In this document: positions 6,063 through 37,622 of the stretch, in pieces
How the letters are laid out: every line of letters begins with the position of its first letter
Numbering within the stretch: the first letter of the stretch is position 1
Made by a program: the position numbers and the translations under genes
Notes under the pieces: generated by a model
Told to the model about the DNA's origin: nothing
Seen by the model: the letters and a program-made list of their open reading frames with translations, nothing else
Databases searched by the model: none
Origin: Trichormus sp. M33_DOE_039
GTDB taxonomy: Bacteria; Cyanobacteriota; Cyanobacteriia; Cyanobacteriales; Nostocaceae
Direction of reading: 5' to 3'
DNA: 37,622 nucleotides
Assembly (NCBI GenBank): GCA_015296085.1
Contig: DVDT01000065.1
Location: forward strand, 1 to 37,622

Positions 6063-6078
6063 AAATAGAATTCATTGA

Positions 6079-6106
6079 TAAAAAAATAGCAGGTTACAGA
6101 CCTGCT
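6079..6106 (-). terminator. intrinsic terminator of the APH-HopA1 pair
   Basis: On the minus strand AGCAGGT-CTGTA-ACCTGCT forms a perfect 7-bp stem with a 5-nt loop, followed by ATTTTTTT. It lies 35 bp after the stop of the HopA1-family gene and before the start of the thioesterase gene, so it separates the two transcription units. Confidence 0.87.
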
Positions 6107-6140
6107 CTAATGCTTAATTTTACTGCAATGTCAATACAAA

Positions 6141-7229: not shown

Positions 7230-7294
7230 TAATCAATCAAAAATTCAGTCTTGAGCAGTTTTTTCCCTTTACCTTTTGCCCCTTACCTATTTAA

Positions 7295-9945: not shown

Positions 9946-10103
9946 GGTTAATCCTTATGTAGATTTTGCTTTTCCTACCTAGTCCCGCAGAGAATCAACC
10001 TGTTTCACATTGAATCTATATACAGTGTGTAACGAGGATGCTGATAAAAGCTAAGTTCTTTATTTTGAATTTTGAATTCCTTTGATTGACGGATAATCCA
10101 GCT

Positions 10104-11453: not shown

Positions 11454-11536
11454 TGGAAAAACACAACTATGTTAAAGACGATAAACTAGGCTAAAACCCT
11501 CTTCCCTTCTGCCTAACTTGCGGGAAGAATTTCGCG

Positions 11537-11563
11537 TAGATTGCTTCCCTGAAAGGGTACTGC
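11537..11563. repeat. interspersed repeat fragment (GTAGNTTGCTTCCC type)
   Basis: GTAGATTGCTTCCCTGAAAG and the following bases contain a small CCCT/AGGG hairpin. The unit resembles the repeats at 14431-14450 and 19951-19963, so it appears to be a scattered cyanobacterial spacer repeat rather than a gene-specific site. Confidence 0.5.
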
Positions 11564-11709
11564 CTGATCCCAATTACAAATATTTAAATCGTTCTATTTA
11601 AACTTAAAAAATTGCAGTAGTTTGCAACTAAATGAGGTACACAACCAGAGAATTCACATAAAAATTCTTCTTCCTTCTGTCTTTTGACTTCTGCCTCCAA
11701 ACCAGCAAT

Positions 11710-12975: not shown

Positions 12976-13057
12976 ATTTTCAGGTACGTTGTAAAATAGT
13001 CATTATCATAGGTTGATCGATATACCTTGGCGTTGATATCCAAATACAGTAAAATAC

Positions 13058-14386: not shown

Positions 14387-14525
14387 TCAGGATTTTATTT
14401 TTAAATGCAAAGTAACGCAGCGAAAAGTATGTAGCTTGCTTCCCGTAGGGTGTGGAGGCTTCCTCCGATTAGAAGTTCGTTAGAAACGCGGAGTATGGAA
14501 AATGAAGGGGTGACAAAGAACAAAC
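14387..14525. repeat. spacer with interspersed repeat and small hairpins
   Basis: The gap between the BrxD-like and helicase genes contains TGTAGCTTGCTTCCCGTAGG (from 14431), then GGAGG-CTT-CCTCC, a 5-bp hairpin. The 13-mer TGTAGCTTGCTTC also occurs at 19951. These are short scattered repeats typical of Nostoc-type spacers and not an obvious terminator. Confidence 0.6.
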
Positions 14526-16688: not shown

Positions 16689-16704
16689 TACTCAGAATGT
16701 TTTG

Positions 16705-18420
16705 GTGATTTTGAATATTTTACAAAACCGTTATCGTTTAATGAATCTGATTAGCCAAGAGGGATTTTGCCAAACTTACATGGCTGTAGATGAGGGCAAA
16801 TCACCTCCAATGGTTTGTATAGTAGAACAAGTAACAGAAGGAAATCAAACACAGCAATTTTTTGAGCAGAAAGCGCAGTTACTTCAAGAAATAGGACAAC
16901 ATCCACAAATTCCCAATTTATTAGCCCATTTTCAAGACAATGGTTACTTTTATTTAATACAAGAATTTATTTCTGGGTCGAATTTAGAGCAAATCTTGGC
17001 AACAGAAGGGGCATTTAATGAAAGTCAAATTTGGCAACTTTTACAAGAGATATTACCAGTCCTAAAATTTATTAGCGATCGCCACATTATTCACTGTGAC
17101 ATCAAACCCCAAAATATCATCCGCATCTACTCAGGAAATTTCGCCTTAGTCGATTTTGCTAATGCTCAAATTGCCTCAGCAATTAACACTAATCACAACA
17201 TTACTGGTAATCCTGAATATTCCGCACCCGAACAAATCCAAGGTAAACCAGTATTTGCTAGTGACCTTTATAGCTTGGGAGTAACTTGTATTTATCTCCT
17301 GACTCAAATTTCGCCCTTTGATTTATGGGACATTACTAATGATGAATGGGTGTGGCGACAATATCTGACTACAAAGATCAGCGATCGCCTCGGCAAAATT
17401 CTCGATAAATTAATCTCAAAAGCCATTCCTCAACGCTATCACACAGCCGATGCAGTCATGCTGGCAATGGGGATCACTCACACATCTACCTATGATTGCA
17501 GCAATTTCAAATCCCCAAATCTGTGGCAATGTACCCATACCTTCACAGGTTCTAGTAGTATTCATACCGTTAGCATGAGTCCTGACGGCAAGATTTTAGC
17601 TAGTGGTGACGACAATAAAATCATCAAATTATGGGACTTAGATACAAAAAAAGTCATCAACACCTTATCAGGACATTCCCAAGCTGTGACATCGCTGACT
17701 TTCAGTCCCAACGGAGAAATCTTAGCCACGGCTAGCGATGACCACAGCGTTAAATTATGGCACTTGCCAACATCAAAAACCATTTACACCCTCACAGGAC
17801 ACTCACACAGCATCAAATCAGTCGCCTTTAGTCCTGATGGGCAAACTCTTGCTAGTGGGAGTTGGGACAAACAAATCAAACTTTGGGATGTGAATAATGG
17901 CGTAGAAATTTGTCACCTATCAGGACATCAACTACAAGTGAGTGCAGTCGCCTTTAGTCCCGATGGAAAACTTTTAGCGAGTGCTAGCTTCGATAGAACA
18001 ATTCGTCTATGGCAATTGAAAAACCGCCAGTGCTATGACTTGTCAGAAACAATCTCAGGTCATACACGAGCGGTTTTAGCGATCGCCTGGAGTCCAGATG
18101 GTAAACTCTTGGCTACAGGCAGCGATGATAACACCATTAAATTGTGGGATGTCAACACTTTTGAGCTAATTGGCACATTGTTAGGCCATTCTTGGGCAGT
18201 AGTCGCAGTAGCTTTTACTGCCGATAGCAAAACACTCATGAGTGCCAGTTGGGATAAAACCATCAAGCTTTGGCAAATCAACACAACACAACAGATAACT
18301 ACTCTAGTAGGTCATGTAGACTCAGTATCCACGGTTGCCGTCAGCCAAGTTGCACAACTAATAGCTAGTGGCAGCCGGGACAAAACCATCAAAATTTGGG
18401 AGTTGACAGTTGACAGTTGA
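16705..18420 (+). CDS. degenerate Ser/Thr kinase fused to seven WD40 repeats
   Basis: About 571 residues: an N-terminal kinase fold (~10-270) and a C-terminal single seven-blade WD40 propeller (~275-570; blades end in KLWDL, KLWHL, KLWDV, RLWQL, KLWDV, KLWQI and KIWEL). The kinase lobe departs from active relatives. The Gly-rich loop is ISQEGFCQTY, the ATP Lys position is Glu (CIVEQV, codon 16825-16827), HRD is HCD (HCDIKPQN) and DFG is DFA; the DIKPQN loop, APE and DLYSLG segments remain. It is probably a pseudokinase scaffold or weakly active. Start is GTG 16705 or the adjacent TTG 16702, only 13-16 bp after the helicase, so likely co-transcribed. The last codons and the stop are supplied by a heptamer repeat. 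Confidence 0.85.
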   Translation: MILNILQNRYRLMNLISQEGFCQTYMAVDEGKSPPMVCIVEQVTEGNQTQQFFEQKAQLLQEIGQHPQIPNLLAHFQDNGYFYLIQEFISGSNLEQILATEGAFNESQIWQLLQEILPVLKFISDRHIIHCDIKPQNIIRIYSGNFALVDFANAQIASAINTNHNITGNPEYSAPEQIQGKPVFASDLYSLGVTCIYLLTQISPFDLWDITNDEWVWRQYLTTKISDRLGKILDKLISKAIPQRYHTADAVMLAMGITHTSTYDCSNFKSPNLWQCTHTFTGSSSIHTVSMSPDGKILASGDDNKIIKLWDLDTKKVINTLSGHSQAVTSLTFSPNGEILATASDDHSVKLWHLPTSKTIYTLTGHSHSIKSVAFSPDGQTLASGSWDKQIKLWDVNNGVEICHLSGHQLQVSAVAFSPDGKLLASASFDRTIRLWQLKNRQCYDLSETISGHTRAVLAIAWSPDGKLLATGSDDNTIKLWDVNTFELIGTLLGHSWAVVAVAFTADSKTLMSASWDKTIKLWQINTTQQITTLVGHVDSVSTVAVSQVAQLIASGSRDKTIKIWELTVDS

Positions 18421-21286: not shown

Positions 21287-22018
21287 TTACTCTATAGCAG
21301 TTTTTAGCTGTCCATCTTCCATATAAATGATGCGATCGGCAATATCCAAGATGCGATTGTCATGAGTGACTAATAAAATCGTACAGCCTTGTTCTTTAGC
21401 TAATTTCTGGATTAATTCCACCACATCTCGACCAGTTTTTTTATCAAGTGCGGCTGTGGGTTCATCTGCTAAAACAATTTGCGGGTTACTAACTAAAGCA
21501 CGCGCGATCGCTACCCGTTGTTTTTGTCCTCCAGAAAGTTTATCAGGATAGTAATTGATTCGGTCTCCCAAGCCAACTGCTTCTAACATGGTAATCGCTT
21601 TGTCATCTGCATCTTGACTTAGCTGATTGTCATGTAACTCTAGAGACATCCTGACATTATCTTTTGCTGTTAAAAAAGTCATTAGGTTATGGGCTTGAAA
21701 AATGTAGCCAATCTGTCGCCGCAAGACAGTTAATCTCTGTTCACTAGTTCCACAAATTTCCTGTCCTAAAATTTTTAAACTACCTTCTTGAGCCGCACGT
21801 AGTCCACCTAAGAGAGTTAATAGAGTGGTTTTCCCAGACCCAGAAGGCCCGGTCATAATGACAATATCACCGCGATTAATATCTAAATTGATATTAAATA
21901 AAACTTGCTTGCGTATTCCACCTTTACCAAAGTAGTGATTGAGATTCCGAACCGAAATTACAGGCTCTTCAACCGCAGGATTAGACTCAGAAATTAGTGG
22001 CAAATAGTTTTGTAACAT
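21287..22018 (-). CDS. DevA-family ABC transporter ATP-binding protein (orphan)
   Basis: A 243-residue ABC ATPase with Walker A GPSGSGKTT at residues 57-65, the Q-loop in YIFQAHNL, signature LSGGQKQRVAIARAL, Walker B IVLADEPTAALD and the H-loop VTHD. The opening VRNLNHYFGKGGIRKQVLFNINLDI and the MTFLTAKDNVRMSLEL segment are typical of DevA, the ATPase of the DevBCA glycolipid exporter and its paralogues in heterocystous cyanobacteria. No devB (membrane fusion) or devC (permease) gene is next to it, so it must use partners encoded elsewhere. The RTX gene lies upstream on the same strand with a strong hairpin in between. Confidence 0.88.
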   Translation of the reverse strand: MLQNYLPLISESNPAVEEPVISVRNLNHYFGKGGIRKQVLFNINLDINRGDIVIMTGPSGSGKTTLLTLLGGLRAAQEGSLKILGQEICGTSEQRLTVLRRQIGYIFQAHNLMTFLTAKDNVRMSLELHDNQLSQDADDKAITMLEAVGLGDRINYYPDKLSGGQKQRVAIARALVSNPQIVLADEPTAALDKKTGRDVVELIQKLAKEQGCTILLVTHDNRILDIADRIIYMEDGQLKTAIE

Positions 22019-24579: not shown

Positions 24580-26334
24580 ATGCAATTAAAAGACAAGATT
24601 TCTAGCGGTGCATATACCAGAAGTAATATCCTGGAAAAATTGTTTATACCTAGAGATGTTCCTCATTTGTCAGGAAAAGATAGTGAAGAAAGACAAGAAC
24701 GCCTTGCAGTTCGTCGCACAATCTTCCTCCATCTAGATGGAATTGCGATCGCTCCGACAATGAACGCTCTACAAACAAGGGGAATTTTCTTCTTATTTAC
24801 AGAGGGAAAACCAATCTCCCTGGAATTGATTCTGAAATACTTTCCAGGCAATATTGGTTATTTGAATGTGGCTTTGCGATTGATGGTGTCTCAAGGATGG
24901 ATGAAGCATCAAGAAATTGATGGCGAAGTCTTCTACACCTTGACCCGTCGAGGTGGTATTGCTGTTGGACTTTCAACAATTTATAAAGACCTCGTTGCGC
25001 TCATACCTACTCTCATCAATATTAAAGACTATTTTTTTGGGGACTTATCTTTGTCGTTACAGTCGAAACTCACTAACGGCATGAATTTGTCCTCTTTTTT
25101 ACTCAGAGCTAAGAGACAGTGGGAATTAGTAGAAAGTGACGACGAGGATTATCAATATGTGTGCTGTCAAATATTGCACCATCTCAATGGCTTATTAGTA
25201 GGGCCAACGATGGTGGCTTTAGCAGTAGCTAAGGTATTTGAGCAAATTGATCCTCAAACACACATACTTGATATCGAAAAGCTTTCAGGTAATCAAGAAC
25301 ATTTAATAGAAGCTTTCAAGATACTCGCTCTACAAGGTTGGGTAACAGTTCAAGGATGTCAAGTCCAATTTAGTAGTGCTGGGTTGTATGCGGTGTCTAG
25401 AGCCTATGCTTACGGAGTCACCGTTTCCTATTTGCCAACCTTTGAAAAAGTTCCTGAATTGTTATTTGACAATCCTGCTATCCTATGGAGGCGGGATACT
25501 CAAGGGCATGAAACTCATGTGAATCGCCCCCTAAATATTTGGGGTAGCGGACTAGCACATCAAACTTATTTTCAGAAAGTTGACGCGATTATCAGAGATA
25601 TCTTTAACCGTCCCATCCATGAGCAGCCCAAAGGCATTGTAGACATGGGTTGTGGAGATGGTACATTTATGGAGCATCTCTATAATGTCATTCAACATCA
25701 GACGCTCAGAGGGCAAGTCCTGGACGAGTATCCCTTGATTATGGTTTGTGCTGACTATAATCAGGCTTCTCGTGAAGCTACCTACAACAAACTCAAGGGT
25801 TTACAGTCCCCTGTCAGCGTCATCTTTGGTGATATTAATGATCCAGACGACTTGGCTAAGACGATACTCGCCAAACATGGAATTCCATCAAGTGAGTTTC
25901 TTCATGTCAGATCATTTTTGGATCACAATCGACCTTTTATCAGTCCCAGAATGGGGAATATGGGTTGTGAATTGACTTCTACAGGAGCTTTTGTCTGTAG
26001 GGGTCGAATGATTAGAGCAGCTGAACTCATCCAAAATTTATTAGAGCATCTACAGCGTTGGAGGCCACATATTGGCAGATTTGGTTTGTTAGTCCTAGAC
26101 TTACACACCATTCCCCCAGAGTTAGCGGCTGCGAATATTGGGTATACCTTGGCTACAGCTTATGATGCAACGCATGGTTATACCGATCAATATCCAATAG
26201 AACTCAATCAATTTCTGGCGGCGGCTGAATTAGCTGGATTAAGTCCTGATCCTCGCTACCAAGCAAAATTCCCAGCCAATGATTTGGCTACAGTCAGTCT
26301 GAATTTGTTTTTACCTATATCCCCACAGGAGTAA
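24580..26334 (+). CDS. stand-alone AprA/SxtA-like polyketide methyltransferase
   Basis: A 584-residue protein. Residues ~345-584 are a class I SAM-dependent methyltransferase: VDMGCGDGTF near 352, an acidic ADYNQ, GDINDPDD, and the segment HVRSFLDHNRPF near 440 that resembles the metal-binding region of AprA MT1 (a mononuclear-iron methyltransferase acting on malonyl-ACP). LVLDLHTIPPE follows. The N-terminal ~330 residues contain two similar units (LHLDGIAIAPTMNAL...LMVSQGWM and HHLNGLLVGPTMVAL...LALQGWV), probably a duplicated winged-helix-like or adaptor domain. In apratoxin and saxitoxin loading modules such domains alkylate the starter and are fused to other domains; here it is free. PKS1 starts 81 bp downstream. 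Confidence 0.75.
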   Translation: MQLKDKISSGAYTRSNILEKLFIPRDVPHLSGKDSEERQERLAVRRTIFLHLDGIAIAPTMNALQTRGIFFLFTEGKPISLELILKYFPGNIGYLNVALRLMVSQGWMKHQEIDGEVFYTLTRRGGIAVGLSTIYKDLVALIPTLINIKDYFFGDLSLSLQSKLTNGMNLSSFLLRAKRQWELVESDDEDYQYVCCQILHHLNGLLVGPTMVALAVAKVFEQIDPQTHILDIEKLSGNQEHLIEAFKILALQGWVTVQGCQVQFSSAGLYAVSRAYAYGVTVSYLPTFEKVPELLFDNPAILWRRDTQGHETHVNRPLNIWGSGLAHQTYFQKVDAIIRDIFNRPIHEQPKGIVDMGCGDGTFMEHLYNVIQHQTLRGQVLDEYPLIMVCADYNQASREATYNKLKGLQSPVSVIFGDINDPDDLAKTILAKHGIPSSEFLHVRSFLDHNRPFISPRMGNMGCELTSTGAFVCRGRMIRAAELIQNLLEHLQRWRPHIGRFGLLVLDLHTIPPELAAANIGYTLATAYDATHGYTDQYPIELNQFLAAAELAGLSPDPRYQAKFPANDLATVSLNLFLPISPQE

Positions 26335-26414: not shown

Positions 26415-29400
26415 GTGTCTAATAATTTCAACGAAAAAGCGATCGCTATTATCGGGATGTCCGGGCGTTTTCCCCAAGCTAACAACCTGGATGAATACTG
26501 GCGCAATCTCCAAAACGGTGTGGAATGTATCTCATTCCTCAGCGATGAAGAACTAGCAGCCGAAGGTGTAGATCACTCTACCCTCAATGACCCGAAGTAT
26601 GTCAAAGCCAGTCCCATCATCGACAACGTTGAATACTTTGATGCAGGATTTTTTGGCTATTCACCCAGAGAAGCCAAACTTATAGATCCTCAACATCGCC
26701 TATTTCTAGAATGTGCTTGGGAAGCCCTAGAAGATGCTGGATGTGATCCCGAAAACTATGAACATCCTATCGGATTTTATGCTGGCGCAAGTATCAATAC
26801 TTATATCCTCGATTGTATTTTAGGCGATCGCTTACGACCTAAACTTGATTTTGAAAGCTTCTTAGAAACCTTTGTAGGTAGTGATAAAGACTTTCTCACC
26901 AGTCGTGTATCTTATCGATTAAACCTGAGAGGGCCTAGCGTCACCGTACAAACAGCTTGTTCAACTTCTTTAGTTGCCGTACATTTAGCTTCTCAAAGTT
27001 TGTTGAATGGCGACTGCAAAATGGCTTTGGCTGGGGCAATTTCTGTGCGAGTACCCCATCGTGTTGGTTACTACTATCGTGGTGGTGGTATTGTTTCTCC
27101 CGATGGACATTGCCGCGCCTTTGATGCTGAGGCTGGGGGGACTGTCTTTGGTAGTGGCGGCGGGATTGTTGTGTTGAAGCGTTTCCAGGATGCTTTGGTG
27201 GATGGCGATCGCATTCATGCCGTCATCCGGTCTACAGCTATTAATAATGACGGTGCTAGTAAAACTAGCTATACCGCACCAGGGGTAATAGGACAGTGCA
27301 ACGCCATTATTGATGCGCTTGCGAAGGCTGAAATCAATCCCGAAACCATCTCATACATCGAAGCCCACGGCACAGGAACGCCCATTGGCGACCCCATCGA
27401 AATCGATGCTTTAACCCAGGCATTTCGCACCCAAACTCAAAAACAGGGATTCTGTGCCATTGGTTCAGCCAAACCTAACATTGGACATTTGGATGTAGCA
27501 TCAGGTATGGCTGGACTCATCAAGCTAACTCTGGCTTTAAAGCACAAACAAATACCACCCAGTATTAACTTTAACCAACCAAATCCCCGCATTGATTTTG
27601 CTGGTAGCCCCTTCTACGTCAATACAAAACTCGCACCGTGGGAAACCAATAACATCCCTCGCCGCGCCGGAGTCACAGCCCTGGGCTTGGGAGGGACTAA
27701 CGCCCATGCGATTCTAGAGGAAGCCCCGACCTTAGAACGAGTAGAGAGTAATAATACAGAAAATAAGTATTACCTGCTACCTTTATCAGCTCGTGGCCCG
27801 GAAGCCCTCCAGAGTTTAGCTAAGTCTTATCAAGAGTTTTTAGCTAATCAACCGGAAACTCTACTAGACATTTGCTATACCGCCAGCGTCCGCCGCAGTC
27901 ATCATTCCCATCGCCTCAGCGTCATAGCTCATTCTCACACTGAACTATCACAATTACTGCAAACATATCTCCGGGGAGAACTGCACCCCCAAATTACCAC
28001 AGGTATTCTCACCCCAGACCGCCCAACTCAACCGATTTTTATCTTCCCAGGACAGGGTTCTCAGTGGTTGGGCATGGGGCGGAAACTATTACAGCAAGAA
28101 CCTGTGTTCCAAGCTGCGATAGTTGAGTGTGATGCAGCCATCAGCCGATATACAGATTGGTCATTACTGGAACAATTGCAGTTAGACGAAGCCGACTCTC
28201 GCCTGGGAGAAATCGACGTTATCCAGCCGACATTGTTTGCCATTGAGGTCGCCTTAGCCACCCTTTGGCAATCATGGGGAATTCAACCTGCGGCTGTGGT
28301 CGGTCATAGTATGGGAGAAGTTGCAGCCGTACATATTGCAGGTGCTTTGAGCCTGGATGATGCAGCCAAGATTATCTGTAAGCGTAGCCAACTGATTAAA
28401 CGGGTCAGTGGTCAAGGTGCAATGGCTGTAGTGGGTTTATCATTGGCTCAAGCAGAAACAACGATAGTTGGCTATGAAGACCGTGTATCTGTAGCGGTGA
28501 GTAATGGCCCGACATCAACTGTATTATCAGGCGACCCCAAAGCGATAGAAACTATCTTGGCAGATTTACAAGCCAAAAATATTTTCTGTCGGTTGGTGAA
28601 AGTCGATGTAGCTTCCCACAGTCCGCAAATGGAAGCCTTACAAGGAGATTTGTTGCAACTTTTGCAGGGAATTCAACCCCAAACCGCAACTATCCCCATT
28701 TATTCCACAGTCACGGGTCAATTAATTGATGGTTCAGAGTTGGACGCAGGTTATTGGGTGAAGAACTTGCGAGAACCAGTGTTGTTCTCAACGGCTATTC
28801 AAACCTTGATAGCAGCAGGACATGAAGTGTTTGTGGAAATTAGTCCCCATCCGATTTTAACCACAGCCATTGAACAAGGAATCCAGTATAGCGATCGCCA
28901 AGGTGTTGTACTTCCTTCCCTCAAACGCAACGAAGACGAACTAGCGGTCATGCTCAATTCTTTAGGTGCGCTGTATACTGCCGGATATCCTGTGAATTGG
29001 CGCAAACTCTACCCCTCTGGGGGAAATCACATCCAACTACCCACTTATCCTTGGCAACGTCAGCGATATTGGTTAGATCGAAAAATTGCCCGGAAAACTC
29101 CACCTCCAGAAGAGACGAACAAATCCGCGATCGCAGAAGATTTGTTCTATGATTTAACTTGGCGATCGCAACCACAGCCAAATTCACTCAGTCAAGACAA
29201 TCAAGATGGATTGTGGTTAATCTTCACTGATAGTCAAGGTCTAGGAGATTCCCTAGCATCGCAATTACACGCACAAGGTGCAACCTGTTACTTTGTTGTC
29301 CCTGGGGAAAGTTACAGCCAAGGGTCTCCAGCACAGTTCACAATTAATCCTGGCCATCCTGAAGATTTGTCACGGCTCATTCAGGATACAACAGCCAGCA

Positions 29401-31100
29401 GTCAGTTACCGCTGCGGGGAATTGTGCATCTGTGGAGTTGGGATATTGCTGCCGCAGAAGTCACTGCAACATCCTTGCAAAGTGCCGAAACATTACTTTG
29501 TGGTAGTGTGCTGCACTTAATTCAAGCCTTGGTGAACAACCCCCCATCAGACTATCCGCGCTTGTGGTTGGTGACACAAAACACCCAGCCAGTGAAATCT
29601 CCCCTCAACTCCCAAGCACTACCCCAATCACTTCTTTGGGGACTGGGAAGAGTGATTGCACTGGAACATCCAGAACTTTGGGGTGGACTCATTGACCTGG
29701 ATACAACGACCCCCAACCCAGCCACCATTCTCTTAGCAGAAATGCAAACCTCTGACGGAGAGGATCAAGTTGTTTGGCGTGATAGTCAAAGATATGTAGC
29801 TCGCCTCGTCGCCAGTGCCGTACCTTCGGCGTTGAAACCATTAACAAAATTCAACACCGAAGGTACTTACTTAATTACAGGTGGTTTGGGTGGACTAGGT
29901 TTAAAGTTGGCAGCTTGGTTAGTTGTTAATGGCGCAAGATATCTAGTTCTCACCAGCAGACAAGAACTCCCAGAACGTGCTTTCTGGGATACCTTAGCAC
30001 CCGATGACAAACGCAAAAAAGCCATTACAGCCATTCAAGCTTTAGAAGCGCAAGGCGCATCCATCAAAGTTGTGCAAGCAGATGTCAGCAACTTTAGCCA
30101 GATGCAAGCTGTATTAGCCAGCCAGACGCAATCACCTTGGTGCGGTATCATCCATGCGGCGGGGATTTCCATTCCCCAAGCTTTAGCCGAGATGAGTCTG
30201 AGTACATATCAAGACGTACTCGCAGCCAAGGTCACGGGGACTTGGGTACTACATCAGTTAACTCAAAATCTCCCTCTCGACTTTTTGATTCTGTTTTCCT
30301 CCGCCGCCGCCATCTGGGGTTCTAGCGGACTTGCACCTTACGCCTCAGCAAACCACTTTTTGGATATCATGGCTCACTATCGCCAAGCCAATAACCTACC
30401 AGCCTTAAGCGTTAACTGGGGTAGTTGGGATGAAATTAACGTGGTGGCGGCTGAAGTCCAAAATTTGTGGTCGCGCGTTGGTTTAAAACCGATGGCTGCA
30501 AACCAAACCTTAGAAGCCTTAAGGTTGTGTTTGCAGGCAGGTGTAGTACAGAAAACAGTTGCAGATGTTGACTGGAGTATCTTTAAACCCACCTATGAAG
30601 TCAGACGACGCAGACCGTTGCTAGCAGAGTTGGGACAACAGCAGGAAATTCCAGAAACTCACACTGTCACTAAATCAGAACTATTGGTGAGGTTAGAGAA
30701 GAGTGTAGCAGGCGATCGCCTCAACTTACTCATTACTCATCTACAAGGGATAGTCAGTGAGATTTTGGATCTAGACCCAGAAAACCCTCCTGAAATCCAG
30801 CAAGGATTTTTCCAAATGGGGATGGATTCTCTTATGTCTATCCAACTCAAAAATCGGCTAGAAGCATCTTTAAATCATTCTCTACCTTCAACTTTAGCCT
30901 TTGATTATCCCAACATTGAAATGCTAGCAGATTATCTCATGCAAGAAGTACTAGCTACAATTTTCATTCAACATCTTGAGCCTATTCAAGAACCAGATAC
31001 ACAGGCAACATCAGTAAATTCTAGCAATAGCTTAGATGAGATGTTTGCACAAATAGAATCACTATCTGAAGACGCAGTAAAACAGTTGTTTTTGAATTAA
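26415..31100 (+). CDS. type I polyketide synthase, KS-AT-KR-ACP
   Basis: A 1561-residue single-module PKS. KS ~7-430 (active Cys in TACSTS, His in EAHGTGT and KPNIGHLD); AT ~540-840 (FPGQGSQW, GHSMGE near 630, VASHSPQM near 730); a linker; KR ~1150-1330 (TGGLGGLG, FSSAAAIWGSSGLAPY with catalytic Ser and Tyr, Asn in SANHF); ACP ~1430-1510 (Ser in GMDSLMS). No DH, ER or MT is present. The Trp in IWGSS and lack of an LDD motif suggest an A-type KR. VASH in the AT is not the malonyl HAFH motif and points to a branched extender or an uncertain one. It starts with GTG directly before the KS with no docking helix; the C-terminal SLSEDAVKQLF resembles a docking tail. Confidence 0.93.
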   Translation: MSNNFNEKAIAIIGMSGRFPQANNLDEYWRNLQNGVECISFLSDEELAAEGVDHSTLNDPKYVKASPIIDNVEYFDAGFFGYSPREAKLIDPQHRLFLECAWEALEDAGCDPENYEHPIGFYAGASINTYILDCILGDRLRPKLDFESFLETFVGSDKDFLTSRVSYRLNLRGPSVTVQTACSTSLVAVHLASQSLLNGDCKMALAGAISVRVPHRVGYYYRGGGIVSPDGHCRAFDAEAGGTVFGSGGGIVVLKRFQDALVDGDRIHAVIRSTAINNDGASKTSYTAPGVIGQCNAIIDALAKAEINPETISYIEAHGTGTPIGDPIEIDALTQAFRTQTQKQGFCAIGSAKPNIGHLDVASGMAGLIKLTLALKHKQIPPSINFNQPNPRIDFAGSPFYVNTKLAPWETNNIPRRAGVTALGLGGTNAHAILEEAPTLERVESNNTENKYYLLPLSARGPEALQSLAKSYQEFLANQPETLLDICYTASVRRSHHSHRLSVIAHSHTELSQLLQTYLRGELHPQITTGILTPDRPTQPIFIFPGQGSQWLGMGRKLLQQEPVFQAAIVECDAAISRYTDWSLLEQLQLDEADSRLGEIDVIQPTLFAIEVALATLWQSWGIQPAAVVGHSMGEVAAVHIAGALSLDDAAKIICKRSQLIKRVSGQGAMAVVGLSLAQAETTIVGYEDRVSVAVSNGPTSTVLSGDPKAIETILADLQAKNIFCRLVKVDVASHSPQMEALQGDLLQLLQGIQPQTATIPIYSTVTGQLIDGSELDAGYWVKNLREPVLFSTAIQTLIAAGHEVFVEISPHPILTTAIEQGIQYSDRQGVVLPSLKRNEDELAVMLNSLGALYTAGYPVNWRKLYPSGGNHIQLPTYPWQRQRYWLDRKIARKTPPPEETNKSAIAEDLFYDLTWRSQPQPNSLSQDNQDGLWLIFTDSQGLGDSLASQLHAQGATCYFVVPGESYSQGSPAQFTINPGHPEDLSRLIQDTTASSQLPLRGIVHLWSWDIAAAEVTATSLQSAETLLCGSVLHLIQALVNNPPSDYPRLWLVTQNTQPVKSPLNSQALPQSLLWGLGRVIALEHPELWGGLIDLDTTTPNPATILLAEMQTSDGEDQVVWRDSQRYVARLVASAVPSALKPLTKFNTEGTYLITGGLGGLGLKLAAWLVVNGARYLVLTSRQELPERAFWDTLAPDDKRKKAITAIQALEAQGASIKVVQADVSNFSQMQAVLASQTQSPWCGIIHAAGISIPQALAEMSLSTYQDVLAAKVTGTWVLHQLTQNLPLDFLILFSSAAAIWGSSGLAPYASANHFLDIMAHYRQANNLPALSVNWGSWDEINVVAAEVQNLWSRVGLKPMAANQTLEALRLCLQAGVVQKTVADVDWSIFKPTYEVRRRRPLLAELGQQQEIPETHTVTKSELLVRLEKSVAGDRLNLLITHLQGIVSEILDLDPENPPEIQQGFFQMGMDSLMSIQLKNRLEASLNHSLPSTLAFDYPNIEMLADYLMQEVLATIFIQHLEPIQEPDTQATSVNSSNSLDEMFAQIESLSEDAVKQLFLN

Positions 31101-31120: not shown

Positions 31121-31372
31121 ATGTCCATTATTTACACAGTTTTAGATAACATCTCACAAATGTCAGGAGGTAAAAAAATCCTCGCAATTTTTATTACCCT
31201 GTTTATCGTTGCTGTTCCCATTACTGGTTTATACTTACTATTTAGAACCTATAATGCCGTAGGTTTAACTTCAATCATGATCATCTACTTTATTTTGATG
31301 CCTCGCGATTCTTATCTGGAAAGGAAAGACATGAGAAAAGCCGAGAAACGTATGAAGGCATTCAAAGTTTAA
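31121..31372 (+). CDS. small two-helix membrane protein in the PKS operon
   Basis: An 83-residue protein not recognised as a family. It has a clear AGGAGA site before its ATG and starts 21 bp after PKS1. Residues ~18-41 (ILAIFITLFIVAVPITGLYLLF) and ~47-60 (LTSIMIIYFILMP) are hydrophobic, and the C-terminus is strongly charged (ERKDMRKAEKRMKAFKV). It would place a basic tail in the cytosol. It could anchor the PKS or assist product handling. It is definitely a gene by position and ribosome binding site; the function is unknown. Confidence 0.8.
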   Translation: MSIIYTVLDNISQMSGGKKILAIFITLFIVAVPITGLYLLFRTYNAVGLTSIMIIYFILMPRDSYLERKDMRKAEKRMKAFKV

Positions 31373-31472: not shown

Positions 31473-32240
31473 ATGACTGTTACTAAAGAAATTAACACCT
31501 GGATTATTTCCCCCAAACCAAATCCGAAAGCTGAAATTCGCTTCTTTTGTTTTCCTTATGCTGGGGGTGGTACTTCCATATTTAGAGATTGGGTTAATAG
31601 CTTACCCACAAATTTAGAATTATGTCACGTCCAACTTCCCGGACATGACAGTCGTATCAAAGAAAAGCCATTTTCTCATCTGACTCCTTTAATAGAAACA
31701 ATGGTTTCAGGCTTGTTACCATACCTGGATAGACCATTTGTTTTTTATGGACACAGTATGGGAGCATTGCTCTGTTTTGAAACAGCGCGCCAGCTACGTA
31801 AACTGCATAATTTACAACCAGAACATCTATTTGTCTCTGGTAGCCGCGCTCCCCAAAGACCATCATTTTTAAAACCCACTCATCATTTACCAGATAACTT
31901 ATTTATCAATGAAATCAACAGACGCTATAAAGCTATCCCCAATGAAATTTTAAATAACCAAGAAATCATGGAGCTATTTCTGCCCATTCTCAAGGCAGAC
32001 TTTTCCATTATCGAAACTTATGAATACATTCCTGACTTGCCATTAGACTGTCCCATTTCTGCCTTTGGTGGACTGCAAGATGAAATGGTAAATATCGAAG
32101 ATATTGCGGCTTGGCAAGAGCAAACATCTGGAAAGTTTATCTTGCGAATGATTGAAGGAGAGCATTTTTTCATCAATCATAAAAAGCAAGAATTACTGAC
32201 AGTTATATCTGAAAAAATAAGAGAAAATTCTAAAATTTAA
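31473..32240 (+). CDS. type II thioesterase
   Basis: A 255-residue alpha/beta hydrolase of the external editing thioesterase family. It has FCFPYAGGGTSIFRDW near the N-terminus, nucleophile motif YGHSMGALLCFE (Ser near residue 94), VSGSRAP, the acid in FGGLQDEMV (~200) and the catalytic His in EGEHFFINH (~230). Such enzymes remove wrong or stalled acyl groups from carrier proteins in PKS/NRPS systems. It lies between the membrane-protein gene (100 bp) and the discrete ACP (15 bp), consistent with a single transcript from PKS1 on. Confidence 0.92.
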   Translation: MTVTKEINTWIISPKPNPKAEIRFFCFPYAGGGTSIFRDWVNSLPTNLELCHVQLPGHDSRIKEKPFSHLTPLIETMVSGLLPYLDRPFVFYGHSMGALLCFETARQLRKLHNLQPEHLFVSGSRAPQRPSFLKPTHHLPDNLFINEINRRYKAIPNEILNNQEIMELFLPILKADFSIIETYEYIPDLPLDCPISAFGGLQDEMVNIEDIAAWQEQTSGKFILRMIEGEHFFINHKKQELLTVISEKIRENSKI

Positions 32241-32255: not shown

Positions 32256-32483
32256 TTGGAAACGCTAACAGAAATTTTTGCAGATGTTTTAAATATTCCT
32301 TCCACAGATATCACAGATCAACTCAGCCCCAATACCCTCAAAACTTGGAATAGCATGGCGCACATGAAACTAGTTATGGCTATAGAGGAAGCCTACGATA
32401 TCGTTTTTACAGTTGACGATGTGAAATCCGTGAAATCCTTCGCCGATGCTCGCCAAATCCTACTGCAAAAAGGCATCTCCTGA
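32256..32483 (+). CDS. discrete acyl carrier protein (W-N-S-M type)
   Basis: A 75-residue carrier protein. The phosphopantetheine Ser is in KTWNSMAHMKLVMAIEEAYDI (Ser near residue 33), in place of the usual GxDS(L/M). The W-(D/N)-S-(L/M)-x-H form is typical of stand-alone ACPs that carry small hydroxyacyl units such as glyceryl- or glycolyl-ACP. The C-terminal VDDVKSVKSFADARQIL is normal for helix 3 and 4. It follows the thioesterase by 15 bp and precedes the E1/E2 genes by 246 bp. I infer that it is the acceptor for the acyl group made by the E1/E2 enzymes. Confidence 0.88.
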   Translation: METLTEIFADVLNIPSTDITDQLSPNTLKTWNSMAHMKLVMAIEEAYDIVFTVDDVKSVKSFADARQILLQKGIS

Positions 32484-32544
32484 CTGAAGAAAGGCAGTCC
32501 CGATGAAGCAAGTTTCACAGTCAAACATGAAAGATGTCTTTCTC

Positions 32545-32580
32545 CCCCTGCTACCCCTGCCTCCCCTGCTTCCCCTGCTC
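32545..32580. repeat. 9-bp tandem repeat (CCCCTGCNN x4)
   Basis: CCCCTGCTA, CCCCTGCCT, CCCCTGCTT, CCCCTGCTC. It lies in the 246-bp gap between the ACP and E1-alpha genes. It is followed by pyrimidine-rich DNA (32640-32700), and no clear terminator is seen. Confidence 0.8.
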
Positions 32581-32729
32581 TTTTAAATCAGAGGAGAGAA
32601 GGCTTAAGGTTAAGAAGACAAAATGTAGAAAGGCATAGCTTAAAACTTTTTTCTTTCCTTCTGCCCTCTGAAAAAATTTTCTCTTTTTTGCATATATCCT
32701 GTGAGCTTTTCTAATTACCCACACCAGCT

Positions 32730-33665
32730 ATGAAACTTGATACTCTCCCCCCAACTATAGAAACTCGAAAACTAACTCCGATATCAGATGATGACTTGAG
32801 AATCATGCTGATGATTCGGCACTTTGAACTGTCACTATTAGAACTATTTTCGAGTGGTAAATTAAACGGTACAACCCATACTTGCTTAGGTCAAGAATAC
32901 ATTCCTGTAGCACTCAGAGCAGTTTTAACCGACGATGATTTTATTCTCAGCAATCATCGTGGACATGGCCATTACCTCGCCAGATTTCAAGATCCCGAAG
33001 GTTTGCTAGCAGAAATTATGGGTAAAGAAGGTGCTGTTTGTCATGGTGTAGGCGGAAGTCAGCACATCTATAGAAAAAACTATTTGTCTACTGGTATTCA
33101 AGGCGAAAGTTTACCCGTAGCGGCCGGAATAGCTTTGCACCTGCGCCGCCAAGGTAACTTGGGGATGGCTGTAGTTCACATCGGTGATGGTACGTGGGGA
33201 GAAGGAGGAGTCTACGAAGCCCTCAATATCGCCCAGCTATGGCATTTACCAGTGCTAGTAATTGTAGAGAACAATAAAATCGCCCAATCTACTCCTAATA
33301 GATTGCAAATGGCTGGGACAATTGCAGGCCGTGTGCAAGGTTTTGGCATTAATTATCTCAAAATCAACTCAATAGATATTAATGAGATTCGGACGCTCAT
33401 TCGCCCTTATATTCAAGTTGCTAGAACTAAATCCTCCCCCTTAGTTATTGAATTTGAAACTAATCGAGTCGGCCCCCACAGCAAAGGCGACGACACACGA
33501 GATATTAAAGAGCTAGAAAGAATTCAAAAGTGGGATTGGTACTCAGCGTATCGCCAACAATATCCAGCGCAATTTGAACACCTAGGATTAAAAGTTCAAA
33601 CAGAAGTAAGTAGTTTGATTAAAGATGTAGAAGCTAGGGAATTAGTACAATGGAAGCTACTCTAA
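32730..33665 (+). CDS. 2-oxoacid dehydrogenase-like E1 alpha subunit (ThDP)
   Basis: A 311-residue thiamine-diphosphate E1-alpha. The ThDP/Mg motif runs from GDGTWGEGG (~152) to VENNKIAQS (~181). The phosphorylation-loop region reads RVGPHSKGDDTRD. An early segment THTCLGQEYIPVALRA...LSNHRGHGHYLA is as in pyruvate/acetoin-type E1 enzymes. It decarboxylates a 2-oxo substrate (or cleaves a ketose) on ThDP and passes the acyl carbanion to the E2 lipoyl arm with E1-beta, whose gene overlaps the 3' end by 16 nt. The substrate cannot be read from sequence. The position inside a PKS cluster argues for a dedicated rather than central-metabolism role. Confidence 0.9.
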   Translation: MKLDTLPPTIETRKLTPISDDDLRIMLMIRHFELSLLELFSSGKLNGTTHTCLGQEYIPVALRAVLTDDDFILSNHRGHGHYLARFQDPEGLLAEIMGKEGAVCHGVGGSQHIYRKNYLSTGIQGESLPVAAGIALHLRRQGNLGMAVVHIGDGTWGEGGVYEALNIAQLWHLPVLVIVENNKIAQSTPNRLQMAGTIAGRVQGFGINYLKINSIDINEIRTLIRPYIQVARTKSSPLVIEFETNRVGPHSKGDDTRDIKELERIQKWDWYSAYRQQYPAQFEHLGLKVQTEVSSLIKDVEARELVQWKLL

Positions 33666-34681
33666 AAAAAACTGAGCGAGTTGTTGAGAATTTAAACCGC
33701 GCTTTACATCATATTTTTGCTGTAGATCCGCAAGTTTTTTTAATCGGTGAAGATATCCTCGACCCCTATGGAGGGGCATTCAAAGTTAGCAAGGGTTTAT
33801 CTACCAAATACCCGGATCGGGTTTTATCTACACCTATTAGTGAAGAAGCCATTATCGGCATCGGAGGTGGTTTAGCTTTGTGCGGTAATAAGCCAATTGT
33901 AGAAATCATGTTTGGTGATTTCATTGCTTTGGGATTTGATCAGATTTTGAATTTTGCCTCTAAATCTGTATCAATGTACGGCACAAAATTAGACTTAAAT
34001 ATGATTGTGCGCTGTGCTGTTGGTGGTAATAGAGGATATGGCCCGACACATAGCCAAAGTTTGCAAAAACACTTTGTAGGTATTCCCAACTTATATTTAT
34101 TTGAATTATCTCCATTACATGATAATATTGCAGTGTTTGAAAAGTTAGTTAATCTAACTTATCCCTCCATATTTTTTGAAGATAAGGTACTTTATACCCA
34201 AAGAATTTATACCGATGGATTGATTGATGATCTGTTTAGTTATGAGTTCTTAGATACAGCGAATAACTTCGCTAGAATTTATGCCGATAGTTTTGAAGAA
34301 AATAGCTGTTTGCTAATTGCCCCTGGAGGATTAGTCCCACGCTGTTTAGCCGCAGCTAGGGAATTATTTATTGATTTTGAGATTGAAACTCAAATTATTG
34401 TTCCTAGCCAACTATATCCGTTTGAACTAGAAACTATTTTAGGGTTATTAACAGACGCTACCCATATTTTTATTGTGGAAGATAGTGTGGCTGGTGGAAC
34501 TTGGGGCAGCGAAATTGCTCACCAAATCTACAGTCACCTCTGGGGTAAGTTAAAAAATCCTGTCAAATTAATTCACTCTAAAAATAGTATTATTCCGTCT
34601 TCTGCCCATTTAGAAAAACAGGTATTGGTGCAGAAAGAAGACATTTGCAATTCTGTGAAGGATGCGGTATTATATGTATGA
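33650..34681 (+). CDS. 2-oxoacid dehydrogenase-like E1 beta subunit
   Basis: A 343-residue transketolase-like beta subunit. The catalytic Glu lies in TPISEEAIIGIGGGLAL (~64), which activates the ThDP aminopyrimidine. The His lies in YGPTHSQSLQ (~133), which normally reads AQHSQS. A C-terminal transketolase domain has IVPSQLYPFE and FIVEDSVAGGTWGSEIA. It overlaps E1-alpha at the 5' end and E2 at the 3' end, so the three are translationally coupled. Pyruvate-, branched-chain- and acetoin-type betas look alike at this level. Confidence 0.9.
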   Translation: MEATLKKTERVVENLNRALHHIFAVDPQVFLIGEDILDPYGGAFKVSKGLSTKYPDRVLSTPISEEAIIGIGGGLALCGNKPIVEIMFGDFIALGFDQILNFASKSVSMYGTKLDLNMIVRCAVGGNRGYGPTHSQSLQKHFVGIPNLYLFELSPLHDNIAVFEKLVNLTYPSIFFEDKVLYTQRIYTDGLIDDLFSYEFLDTANNFARIYADSFEENSCLLIAPGGLVPRCLAAARELFIDFEIETQIIVPSQLYPFELETILGLLTDATHIFIVEDSVAGGTWGSEIAHQIYSHLWGKLKNPVKLIHSKNSIIPSSAHLEKQVLVQKEDICNSVKDAVLYV

Positions 34682-35777
34682 AATAGTTCTACCAAAATTT
34701 AATAATAATGATGAAAGTTATACGTTACTTTACTGGCTGTTAGATGCAGGTAAGCCAGTTAGTAAACAGGAAGCGATCGCAGTATTTGAAACATCGAAAG
34801 CAGCTTTCGATTTAGAAAGTGAATCTGAAGGCATTTTACATCCATTACCCCAAGCTGGTGATGAATGTAAGCCAGGAGATGTCATTGGCTATCTATTTGC
34901 AACGGAAGTAGAAAGGCAGGATTTTATCCAGAATTCTGGAGCGAAAACTAAAGAAACGAAGGATAAATCCTTAACCATTACCAAAGCTGCTCAGGAACTC
35001 ATAGAAAAGCATGGTATTGCGGAAGAAAGTATTAGAAAACTAGGTAAGAGTATTATTAAAAGACCGGATATTGAAAAGTTAATCAGTGAACAAAATCAAA
35101 GTGTTGTGACTGGTTTAGAAATATCTCGTCAACAAATGGCGATCGCTCGTGTAGTCACCCAGTCTCACAACCAAATACCCAAAGCATTTCTGTTGATGAA
35201 AGTCTACTGTGATGCTGCAATACAAATGTTGAATGACCACGGAACAAAACACGATGTCATTATTGGTTTACCAGAACTACTAGTTAAAATCACCGCCACC
35301 TTACTTTCAGACTTCCCCTTTTTCTTTGGCAGTTTAATTGATGACAATCGATTTATGCCAGGAGAGGTTGCTAATATTGGCGTTACCCTTGATTTAGGCA
35401 AAGGCTTATTCATCCCTGTCATTAAAAACGTTGGTGATAAATCTTTATCAGATGTTGCCAATACTTTGATTGATTTTAGATTGAAAGCGATGCGTGGTCA
35501 GTTTACAGAAGAAGAATTAAATCAGGGAAATATTTCTATCTCCATTAATATGGATCAAGATTCTCTGGTGACGATTCCGATTATTCTTCCCTCACAAACT
35601 TGTATGCTATCGCTAGGTGGAATTCAAGAAGAACTTTATTTAGATACAGAACAACATATTAAGACTCGTAGTTATATCAATTTAGGGCTAGCCTACGACC
35701 ACAGAGTAATTAATGGGCGAGAAGCTGCTCAATTTTTAACCAAAATTAAAACCAAACTTGAACAACCAAGTATATGA
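34674..35777 (+). CDS. 2-oxoacid dehydrogenase-like E2 (lipoyl acyltransferase)
   Basis: About 367 residues: one lipoyl domain (1-80; lipoyl Lys in ETSKA at residue 42, where most have ETDKA), one E1/E3-binding domain (~100-140, AAQELIEKHGIAEESIRKLGKS) and the acyltransferase core (~155-365) ending with the catalytic His in YDHRVINGREAAQFL. The usual Asp after the HRV step is Asn; this is also seen in some genuine E2p enzymes, so activity is plausible. I prefer the ATG at 34674; an ATG at 34662 adds four residues. The role is to transfer the acyl group from lipoyl to CoA, or here probably to the discrete ACP. No E3 (lipoamide dehydrogenase) gene is present in the window. Confidence 0.9.
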   Translation: MYEIVLPKFNNNDESYTLLYWLLDAGKPVSKQEAIAVFETSKAAFDLESESEGILHPLPQAGDECKPGDVIGYLFATEVERQDFIQNSGAKTKETKDKSLTITKAAQELIEKHGIAEESIRKLGKSIIKRPDIEKLISEQNQSVVTGLEISRQQMAIARVVTQSHNQIPKAFLLMKVYCDAAIQMLNDHGTKHDVIIGLPELLVKITATLLSDFPFFFGSLIDDNRFMPGEVANIGVTLDLGKGLFIPVIKNVGDKSLSDVANTLIDFRLKAMRGQFTEEELNQGNISISINMDQDSLVTIPIILPSQTCMLSLGGIQEELYLDTEQHIKTRSYINLGLAYDHRVINGREAAQFLTKIKTKLEQPSI

Positions 35778-35873: not shown

Positions 35874-37622
35874 ATGGGTAAACTTCCAGAGCGCATTACC
35901 AATCTTTCAGCAACAAAACTCGCGCTCTTGGTACAACAAATGCGCGCCAAAACTGATAGCATCGAACTGTTAAACGCAGAACCGATTGCTATTATTGGTA
36001 TGGGTTGCCGATTTCCTGGTGGTAGCGATAACCCCGAAGCATTCTGGAAAAATCTCCGTAACGGTGTTGATGCTATCAGCGAGATTCCTTCAGACCGTTG
36101 GGATGTGAACGCATATTATGACCCCAACCCCGATACACCAGGAAAAATGTATTCCCGACATGGTGGTTTTGTTGGTCAAATAGACCAATTTGAGCCGGAG
36201 TTTTTCGGGATTAGTCCACGGGAAGCTCAGAGTCTCGATCCCCAGCAGCGACTAATGCTAGAAGTTACCTGGGAAGCACTAGAAAATGCTGGAGTTCCCC
36301 TCAATCAATTGCAAAGAAGCAAAACCGGCGTTTTCGTTGGCATTACCACCACAGATTATCTACAACTGCAAACCAGTCTTGCAGACGATCAACTTATAGA
36401 TGCTTATACAAATTCCGGCGGGGCAATTAACTTTGCGGCTGGTCGATTATCTTATTTTTTAGGGTTACAAGGGCCAAGTTTAGCTGTAGAAACAGCTTGT
36501 TCCTCATCATTAGTAGCAGTTCATTTAGCTTGTCAAAGTCTGCGTCATCAAGAAAGTGAATTGGCAATTGTCGGCGGTGTTAACTTGATTGTCATCCCAG
36601 AGATGAACGTCAGACTATGTAAAGCCAAGATGATTGCAATGGATGGACGCTGCAAAACCTTTGATAGTGCTGCGGATGGTTTTGGACGTTCCGAAGGTTG
36701 TGGTGTTTTGGTACTCAAACGCCTTTCCCAAGCATTAGCTGACGGTAACAACATCGTAGCCTTAATTCGTGGTTCAGCAGTCAATCAAGACGGTGCTAGC
36801 AGTGGTTTGACTGTACCTAACGGACTAGCGCAACAAGCAGTGGTCAGACAAGCACTAGCTAACGCTGGACTAGAACCCCATCAAGTGAGTTATATCGAAA
36901 CTCACGGTACAGGTACATCTTTGGGAGATCCGATTGAAGTTAATGCCCTTGGCGCGGTATTTGGGAAAGAGAAAACAGCTGATCAGCCCCTCATGTTAGG
37001 GTCTGTCAAAACCAACATCGGTCATACAGAAGCAGCCGCAGGTATAGCTGGCATCATTAAAGTAGCTTTGGCACTACAACATCAAGAAATTCCGCCACAT
37101 CTGCATTTTCAAACACCCAACCCTCATATTGCTTGGGAAAATTTACCAGTTACAGTCCCAACTCAACTAACACCCTGGCTACCACATCAGCAACGTCGCA
37201 TTGCTGGAGTAAGTTCCTTTGGTGCAAGCGGGACAAATGCTCATGTAATCCTAGAGGAAGCACCAATAACTCACAGGGGAGAAGAACTGAAAATTGAGCG
37301 ACCCCTACATCTACTAACACTATCAGCCAAACAACCAAACACCCTAAAAGAACTAGCCCAACGCTACATCAACTACCTTTCATCACACCCAGAAACACCA
37401 CTTGGCGACATCACCCACACATCCCAAATCGGCAGAACTCACTTTCATCATCGTCTGGCTGTAATTGCATCTGACCACCAGCAAATGCAACAACAGTTGC
37501 AAGCCTATCTCGATGAAAGCGAAGTCATCGGCATCCATCAAGGACACAGCAGTCAAAAAACCAGAAAAATCGCCTTCCTCTTCACCGGACAAGGTTCACA
37601 ATATCACCACATGGGTCGGCAA
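35874..37622 (+). CDS. type I polyketide synthase, KS-AT..., cut by window edge
   Basis: 583 codons are visible with no stop. Residues 1-35 form a docking-like helix (ITNLSATKLALLVQQMRAKTD). The KS follows at ~38-460 (active Cys in TACSSS, His in ETHGTGTSLGD and KTNIGHTEAAAG). An AT begins at the edge with FLFTGQGSQYHHMGRQ. All KS catalytic residues are present. The start ATG at 35874 comes 97 bp after E2, with an AGGGGA upstream. The N-terminal helix has the LSxxKxALL pattern of cyanobacterial class 2 docking domains and could accept the C-terminal tail of PKS1. Later domains, and possibly further genes, lie outside the window. Confidence 0.92.
   Translation, partial: MGKLPERITNLSATKLALLVQQMRAKTDSIELLNAEPIAIIGMGCRFPGGSDNPEAFWKNLRNGVDAISEIPSDRWDVNAYYDPNPDTPGKMYSRHGGFVGQIDQFEPEFFGISPREAQSLDPQQRLMLEVTWEALENAGVPLNQLQRSKTGVFVGITTTDYLQLQTSLADDQLIDAYTNSGGAINFAAGRLSYFLGLQGPSLAVETACSSSLVAVHLACQSLRHQESELAIVGGVNLIVIPEMNVRLCKAKMIAMDGRCKTFDSAADGFGRSEGCGVLVLKRLSQALADGNNIVALIRGSAVNQDGASSGLTVPNGLAQQAVVRQALANAGLEPHQVSYIETHGTGTSLGDPIEVNALGAVFGKEKTADQPLMLGSVKTNIGHTEAAAGIAGIIKVALALQHQEIPPHLHFQTPNPHIAWENLPVTVPTQLTPWLPHQQRRIAGVSSFGASGTNAHVILEEAPITHRGEELKIERPLHLLTLSAKQPNTLKELAQRYINYLSSHPETPLGDITHTSQIGRTHFHHRLAVIASDHQQMQQQLQAYLDESEVIGIHQGHSSQKTRKIAFLFTGQGSQYHHMGRQ

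Follow-up and report, generated by a model that had tools for sequence, protein, structure and literature searches.

What do four genes for a discrete acyl carrier protein (ACP) and for E1-alpha, E1-beta and E2 proteins of the pyruvate dehydrogenase (PDH) type do inside a modular polyketide synthase (PKS) cluster? The question is raised by a 37,622-nt stretch of DNA from the cyanobacterium Trichormus sp. M33_DOE_039 (the window, which is the entire contig C36 of the source genome). On balance, the evidence leans slightly towards the four gene products being a glycolyl-ACP generator that primes the PKS, and the set may best be read as an actinobacterial type of E1/E2/ACP glycolyl loading, here newly placed in a cyanobacterial PKS with integral acyltransferases (cis-AT PKS). 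The original prediction, made from the letters of the window, knew of no described cyanobacterial PKS with such a loading scheme, and none was found among the open-access papers listed (judged by titles and the starts of abstracts). The four genes are as follows.

32256..32483, plus strand: discrete ACP of 75 amino acids, TTG start (Pfam PP-binding, 1.7e-5)
32730..33665, plus strand: E1-alpha (Pfam E1_dh, 1e-49), with the thiamine diphosphate (ThDP) motif GDG...NN at amino acids 152-182
33650..34681, plus strand: E1-beta (Pfam Transket_pyr, 6e-22; Transketolase_C, 3e-13)
34662..35777, plus strand: E2, with one lipoyl domain and an acyltransferase domain (Pfam 2-oxoacid_dh, 4e-39; Biotin_lipoyl, 3e-5)

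Open reading frames (ORFs), Pfam matches and motifs agree that these genes stand in a row at 32256-35777, within a cis-AT PKS/nonribosomal peptide synthetase (NRPS) cluster. The TTG start of the ACP is preceded by GGAGG, no alternative start codon lies between it and the stop at 32238, and the ACP's phosphopantetheine serine, Ser33 (32352-32354), lies within W-N-S-M-A-H. A gap of 246 bp separates the ACP from E1-alpha; the overlaps claimed for the genes that follow measure 16 bp (E1-alpha/E1-beta) and 20 bp (E1-beta/E2). E1-beta has Glu65 (TPISE) and His134 (HSQS), both in stretches that align with a solved 2-oxoacid dehydrogenase, while E2 has ETSKA (Lys46) in the lipoyl domain and DHRVING (His347) in the acyltransferase domain. 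The key motifs that had been claimed are present in E1-alpha, E1-beta and E2, and their residues are presumably the catalytic ones. No E3 gene is seen in the ORF lists of the window or of the full cluster in its relatives, as had also been proposed.

An ordinary PDH that lies here by accident, or a duplicate PDH acylating coenzyme A (CoA), would belong to the same families and carry the same motifs, but this explanation is extremely improbable. Distant second genes exist on separate contigs of the window genome, for E1-alpha on C47 (30-31% identity to the cluster copy), E1-beta on C105 (29%) and E2 on C113 (25%); these are naturally read as the housekeeping PDH, and the cluster set is not the only one of its kind in the organism. 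A third, weak E1-alpha match lies on C59 (E 8e-7, in a 639-aa frame). The best NCBIfam matches of the cluster E1 and E2 proteins are to pyruvate- and 2-oxoacid-dehydrogenase families, all far below the curated cut-offs, and close similarity to either the genome's other copies or the curated PDH families is lacking. The set has its own ACP and is syntenic with the PKS in all five genomes that carry it; the separate E1-beta and E2 genes, together with this conserved synteny, led to rejection of the ordinary PDH.

Within the window's family, 5 of 217 genomes, its own included, are carriers. The order methyltransferase-PKS1-type II thioesterase (TEII)-ACP-E1-alpha-E1-beta-E2-PKS2 is kept in all five, which bears out the expected conservation together with the PKS; because the block is syntenic in five genomes, its arrangement is not due to chance. 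In a scan of one genome per species, E1-alpha was 89% identical in Desmonostoc muscorum FACHB-395 (L009) and Nostoc calcicola FACHB-3891 (L010). Across the phylum, sampled evenly with 291 genomes, three had a match at E <= 1e-40, namely the window's and two genomes of 1.9 Mb. In the latter two (L006:6806-17033 on G269:C24 and L007 on G025:C4), the order is E2-ACP-E1-alpha-E1-beta, with genes for a lipoate-protein ligase, a phosphopantetheinyl transferase (PPTase), a polysaccharide deacetylase and a glycosyltransferase, and L006 additionally has MBOAT and AlgX-like genes; such a set may provide acyl-ACP for surface-glycan acylation in a self-contained way.

In the quinocarcin (QncN/QncM/QncL) and naphthyridinomycin (NapB/NapC/NapD) pathways, a ThDP-dependent E1, a lipoyl-bearing E2 and an ACP place a glycolyl unit on a carrier protein. 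With these systems, and with SclQ1-SclQ4 of the scleric acid pathway, the window shares ThDP-dependent E1-alpha/E1-beta and a lipoyl E2 acyltransferase, without E3, in an assembly-line cluster. It also shares a discrete cognate ACP adjoining the E1 genes, and similar ACPs occur in L051, L032, L025, L052 and other loci, also in phyla other than that of the window. Of 196 relatives, the best 80 were kept, and the loci and the E1-alpha tree rest on these. The window E1-alpha is 54-68% identical to those of actinobacterial and Chloroflexota loci (L011-L088). In the tree (84 rows, built from tblastn-matched segments), the window, the other Nostocaceae, two Chloroflexota and the two 1.9-Mb genomes form a seven-row group (support 96/99), which is a lead, nested in a mostly actinobacterial clade of secondary-metabolism E1s and far from the genome's other E1-alpha. 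In this tree, loci that resemble the NapB, QncN and SclQ type stand in for QncN, NapB and SclQ2 themselves. Because E1-alpha groups with such look-alikes and not with the genome's other E1, glycolyl is the best supported of the starters originally listed; nothing seen favours a lactyl-derived or branched acyl unit.

Once two doubtful matches are set aside, 18 of 81 loci have an ACP with the motif W-x-S-x-x-H/Q close to E1, and 15 of these 18 are neither Nostocaceae nor L006. When a discrete ACP of this kind is mapped on the tree as a label set by hand (the motif matches minus L036 and L082, both apparently false, with L068, the window and L005 added), 8 changes are needed, against a mean of 18.7 in shuffles, none of 500 being as low. 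Gene context was scanned over at most 10 kb to either side in 80 outside loci, of which 78 come from the kept set and two from another search. NRPS probes for adenylation-peptidyl carrier protein (A-PCP) or condensation (C) domains matched in 50 loci, ketosynthase (KS) in 13 and either in 61; the A-PCP probe can also match single AMP-ligases. No E2 was matched in L024. Longest-ORF gene calling is misleading in GC-rich loci, where a pick weighted by GC content at third codon positions was used; neighbours named by eye are leads only.

Two kinds of outside locus resemble the characterized clusters. In L051 (Streptomyces sp. CBMA152), Pfam places DAHP synthase, chorismate-binding/GATase, thioesterase, C-A-PCP NRPS and PPTase genes around ACP-E1-alpha-E1-beta-E2, with an E1-alpha 58% identical to the window's and an ACP that matches the window ACP at E 1.7e-12; this gene content is much of the list reported for the scleric acid cluster (PMC6335953). 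In L032, L052 and L025, E1-alpha and an ACP are followed by a single ORF that spans E1-beta and E2, which is the layout of QncN-M-L, where QncL is described as holding E1-beta and E2 domains in one protein (PMC6335953). The SclQ1-SclQ4 proteins of Streptomyces sclerotialus are assigned to glycolyl supply and, like the window set, have separate ACP, E1-alpha, E1-beta and E2 genes, with no E3 in the cluster as listed there (PMC6335953). They differ in being actinobacterial, in feeding a one-module NRPS (proline) and in having their own PPTase beside them, whereas the window set lies in a modular PKS cluster (PMC6335953). The Qnc and Nap systems, as cited in PMC6335953 and PMC5384830, differ in the fusion of E1-beta and E2 and in the entry of the unit into an NRPS line, and in the look-alike loci the ACP lies between E1-alpha and E1-beta.

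It is also conceivable, though unlikely, that the complex bypasses CoA and provides an ordinary starter, made from pyruvate as acetyl-ACP or as some other acyl-ACP of 2-oxoacid origin. The low-scoring NCBIfam matches to pyruvate and 2-oxoacid dehydrogenases would fit, as would pepteridine, for which carrier priming from 2-oxoacids has been proposed (PMC5384830). In that pathway Plu2796 (an E2-T-C fusion, with E1) resembles the window set in that a carrier arm, and not CoA, is the proposed acyl acceptor of PDH-like E1/E2 proteins, again without E3; it is unlike the window in that the carrier is fused to E2, the substrates are 2-oxoacids and the acyl group goes to a pterin (PMC5384830). The placement of E1-alpha in a clade with loci resembling glycolyl systems argues against an acetyl starter, and a unit as common as acetyl would presumably need no dedicated four-gene set.

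The flanking genes are listed here, with the methyltransferase at the head of the block.

24580..26334, plus strand: methyltransferase of the AprA MT1 type (Pfam AprA_N, WH_AprA and Methyltransf_36, 8e-105), without GNAT and ACP
26415..31100, plus strand: PKS1, KS-acyltransferase (AT)-ketoreductase (KR)-ACP, without an N-terminal docking segment, its KS of an NRPS-following type (Pfam; context of KS relatives)
31121..31372, plus strand: conserved 83-aa ORF, membrane-like by eye (no Pfam match)
31473..32240, plus strand: type II (editing) thioesterase (Pfam Thioesterase, 8e-45; syntenic in relatives)
35874..37622, plus strand: PKS2, with a docking-like N-terminal segment, a KS and the start of an AT, cut by the contig end at 37622 (Pfam; KS-AT-dehydratase (DH)-KR-ACP in N. 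calcicola)

The set does lie between two PKS genes, as had been claimed, with the qualification that the 83-aa ORF (67 of 83 residues identical to its N. calcicola counterpart) and the TEII gene also separate PKS1 from the ACP. The KS of PKS1 begins at residue 8, as against residues 33-44 in PKS2, PKS5, PKS6 and PKS7, where it follows docking-like segments; the N-terminus of PKS4 is also short. PKS1 has no NRPS ahead of it; the cluster's single NRPS gene stands last. Relatives of the PKS1 KS were drawn from 194 cyanobacterial genomes (29 of 30 loci per set, the window's own left out, with one or two per genome), and a locus counted as having NRPS context when an A-PCP probe or a GGxS motif matched within 1.5 kb. 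An NRPS module lies directly upstream in 23 of 29 loci, compared with 7 of 29 for the PKS2 KS used as a control (Fisher p 5.5e-5). The PCP-type GGxS motif occurs at 15 of the 29 PKS1-KS loci and at none of the control loci among the motifs listed; four of the seven control positives carry a plain ACP-type motif in its place, and may not be true NRPS modules. A closer tie, in which this KS would be special to E1/E2 loci (51-54% identity to the KSs of L035, L059 and, over 232 residues, L038), was rejected, as identities of up to 65% occur in cyanobacterial genomes without the cassette; the NRPS-following type is the trait that survives. Because the docking segment is absent, the KS is of this type and no NRPS lies ahead of it, PKS1 looks like an entry module with a KS used to acyl groups bearing an alpha-heteroatom, and the neighbouring acyl-ACP would be its natural donor.

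On this basis a route can be proposed. By homology, E1-alpha and E1-beta would use ThDP to remove two carbons from a ketose phosphate (for instance xylulose 5-phosphate) as a hydroxyacyl unit, and the unit would be oxidised onto the lipoyl arm of E2, whose acyltransferase domain would pass it to the discrete ACP and not to CoA. The reduced lipoyl arm would presumably be reoxidised by the cell's own E3. The KS of PKS1, whose type probably receives mostly chains from NRPS carriers, and so alpha-amino-acyl groups, would here accept the alpha-hydroxyacyl (glycolyl) unit from the ACP. PKS1 would then add one unit and reduce it, the AprA-type methyltransferase perhaps methylating in trans, before the chain moved to PKS2 and onward to a terminal NRPS with a thioesterase (TE) domain; the type II thioesterase would clear misloaded units. 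If this is correct, a hydroxyacyl unit derived from sugar starts a modular cis-AT polyketide with no need for CoA activation, in a phototroph rich in ketose phosphates, and a system described in actinobacterial peptide pathways extends to cyanobacteria. The four genes and PKS1 would form a compact test case for transferring such priming to other PKSs, and, with relatives of the genes in Chloroflexota and, within the window's own phylum, in a lineage of small genomes, the substrate question becomes testable by comparison.

Several observations weigh against glycolyl priming of PKS1. Without sclQ1-4, some scleric acid was still made, and supplying glycolic acid brought production back (PMC6335953), so the set is not the sole glycolyl source in that case. 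In the E1-alpha tree, the cyanobacterial rows are flagged for odd composition and the branch to L005/L006 is long. Since 61 of the 81 loci have no match to the ACP motif, the clade as a whole may not share loading of such an ACP. The ACP of L051 has no Pfam match, and the isochorismatase and ATP-grasp genes reported for the scleric acid cluster are not seen in that locus. The KS type of PKS1 is common, occurring in 28 of 194 cyanobacterial genomes (E <= 1e-110), and is not tied to E1/E2. Two gene neighbourhoods add to these points, of which the first lies further along the cluster itself.

The full cluster, with seven PKS genes, a 3-hydroxy-3-methylglutaryl synthase (HMGS) cassette and a final NRPS-TE, is found on unbroken contigs of N. 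calcicola, G402 and G393, where all genes lie on one strand in the order methyltransferase-PKS1-TEII-ACP-E1-alpha-E1-beta-E2-PKS2-PKS3-HMGS-ECH1-ECH2-ACP-PKS4-PKS5-PKS6-PKS7-NRPS. Gene by gene, G402 and G393 are 85-100% identical to N. calcicola; in D. muscorum this gene complement is divided among four contigs. HMGS was identified by Pfam, and ECH1, ECH2 and the donor ACP by eye from the sequence. The assembly-line proteins of N. calcicola have these domains.

PKS2: KS-AT-DH-KR-ACP
PKS3: KS-AT-KR-ACP-KS-AT
PKS4: KS-AT-ACP-KS-AT-DH-KR-ACP
PKS5: KS-AT-KR-ACP
PKS6 and PKS7: each KS-AT-DH-KR-ACP
NRPS: TubC_N-C-A-PCP-TE, with an A-domain pocket, by eye, of DLYNMSLIW, which we take to resemble cysteine codes

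The C-terminal KS-AT pair of PKS3 (L098 in N. calcicola), directly upstream of the HMGS cassette, has a degenerate AT (GGGVGE where GHSxGE is usual) and no ACP behind it. In the window genome, the start of contig C116 falls within PKS5; PKS6, PKS7 and no fewer than the N-terminal 510 residues of the NRPS also lie on this contig. C36 ends in 139 bases (37484-37622 of the window) that are identical to the first 139 of C116, and no HMGS was found in this genome, whose assembly is broken just there. Because of this identity and the missing HMGS, either the middle of the cluster was deleted, so that PKS2 continues into PKS5, or the assembly has lost it.

The HMGS cassette gives rise to the main rival explanation, namely that E1/E2 replaces a missing malonyl-ACP decarboxylase as source of the acyl donor for beta-branching; this donor would be acetyl (from pyruvate) or glycolyl, carried either by the discrete ACP or by the small ACP beside HMGS. 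The HMGS-ECH1-ECH2-ACP stretch of N. calcicola has no gene for a decarboxylating KS, with no ORF for one between PKS3 and PKS4 and no separate ORF of at least 150 aa for one in the cluster, and genes are spaced too tightly in G402, G393 and D. muscorum to admit one; the apratoxin cassette, by contrast, is ACP-KS-HCS-ECH1-ECH2 (PMC3075265). A small stand-alone KS elsewhere in the genome (L180, with L181 and L182 as its likely counterparts; one of the small KSs, another having 417 aa) was considered as the decarboxylase and rejected, having a normal active-site Cys and unrelated neighbours. Despite the missing KS, supply of HMGS is doubtful: the cognate ACP adjoins E1-alpha and not HMGS, the cassette has a small ACP of its own, the window genome keeps intact E1/E2/ACP and PKS1 genes with no HMGS found (though at the break noted above), and the 80 outside E1/E2 loci contain no HMGS match. 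One complex might instead serve two chemistries, both priming PKS1 through its own ACP and supplying the donor acyl-ACP of HMGS, the ACP-E1-E2 set being in a wider sense a mobile, cross-phylum acyl-ACP generator with surface-glycan acylation among its uses. This is quite unlikely, but if true, beta-branching would draw on central sugar phosphates and not on malonyl-CoA.

The second neighbourhood is that of L063 (8569-13003; Streptomyces noursei), where KAS III-like and ACP-like ORFs (both by eye) stand ahead of E1-alpha, E1-beta and E2 between modular PKS genes. It would suit a use of the acyl-ACP in chain release, as in tetronate pathways, and not in priming. For the window's cluster such a use is very unlikely, as no KAS III/FabH-like ORF is seen, by eye, in the whole-cluster ORF lists and the assembly line ends in C-A-PCP-TE.

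The head of the cluster also resembles that of apratoxin, in which an AprA-type methyltransferase heads a cyanobacterial PKS/NRPS cluster with an HMGS cassette further on (PMC3075265). Unlike in apratoxin, as described, the methyltransferase here lacks GNAT and ACP, the E1/E2/ACP set is present and the HMGS cassette has no KS gene (PMC3075265). The window protein (584 aa) is the methyltransferase part alone, without the GNAT and ACP found behind it in AprA, and is thus not an AprA-type loading module, in which methyltransferase, GNAT-like decarboxylase and ACP form one protein. Its PDB relatives align over about their first 500 residues only: residues 10-508 of 713 in 7uci ('Polyketide synthase-related protein'), and residues 31-523 of 652 in 6b39 ('AprA Methyltransferase 1'). 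We take 7uci to be SxtA.

At the edge of the cluster lies a further gene.

21287..22018, minus strand: DevA-family ABC exporter ATPase (NCBIfam TIGR02982, over cut-off)

That it is part of the pathway is unproven. ORFs resembling, by eye, the membrane-fusion and permease partners of DevA lie beyond the NRPS at the opposite end of the cluster in N. calcicola. Elsewhere in the window, a row of DUF815 AAA, TerB-C, BrxC/D-like ATPase, DEAD helicase and kinase-WD40 genes (10086-18420) is possibly a defence-like island, and a HopA1-domain protein is encoded beside an APH-type phosphotransferase and a 4HBT thioesterase at 5613-8533 on the minus strand.

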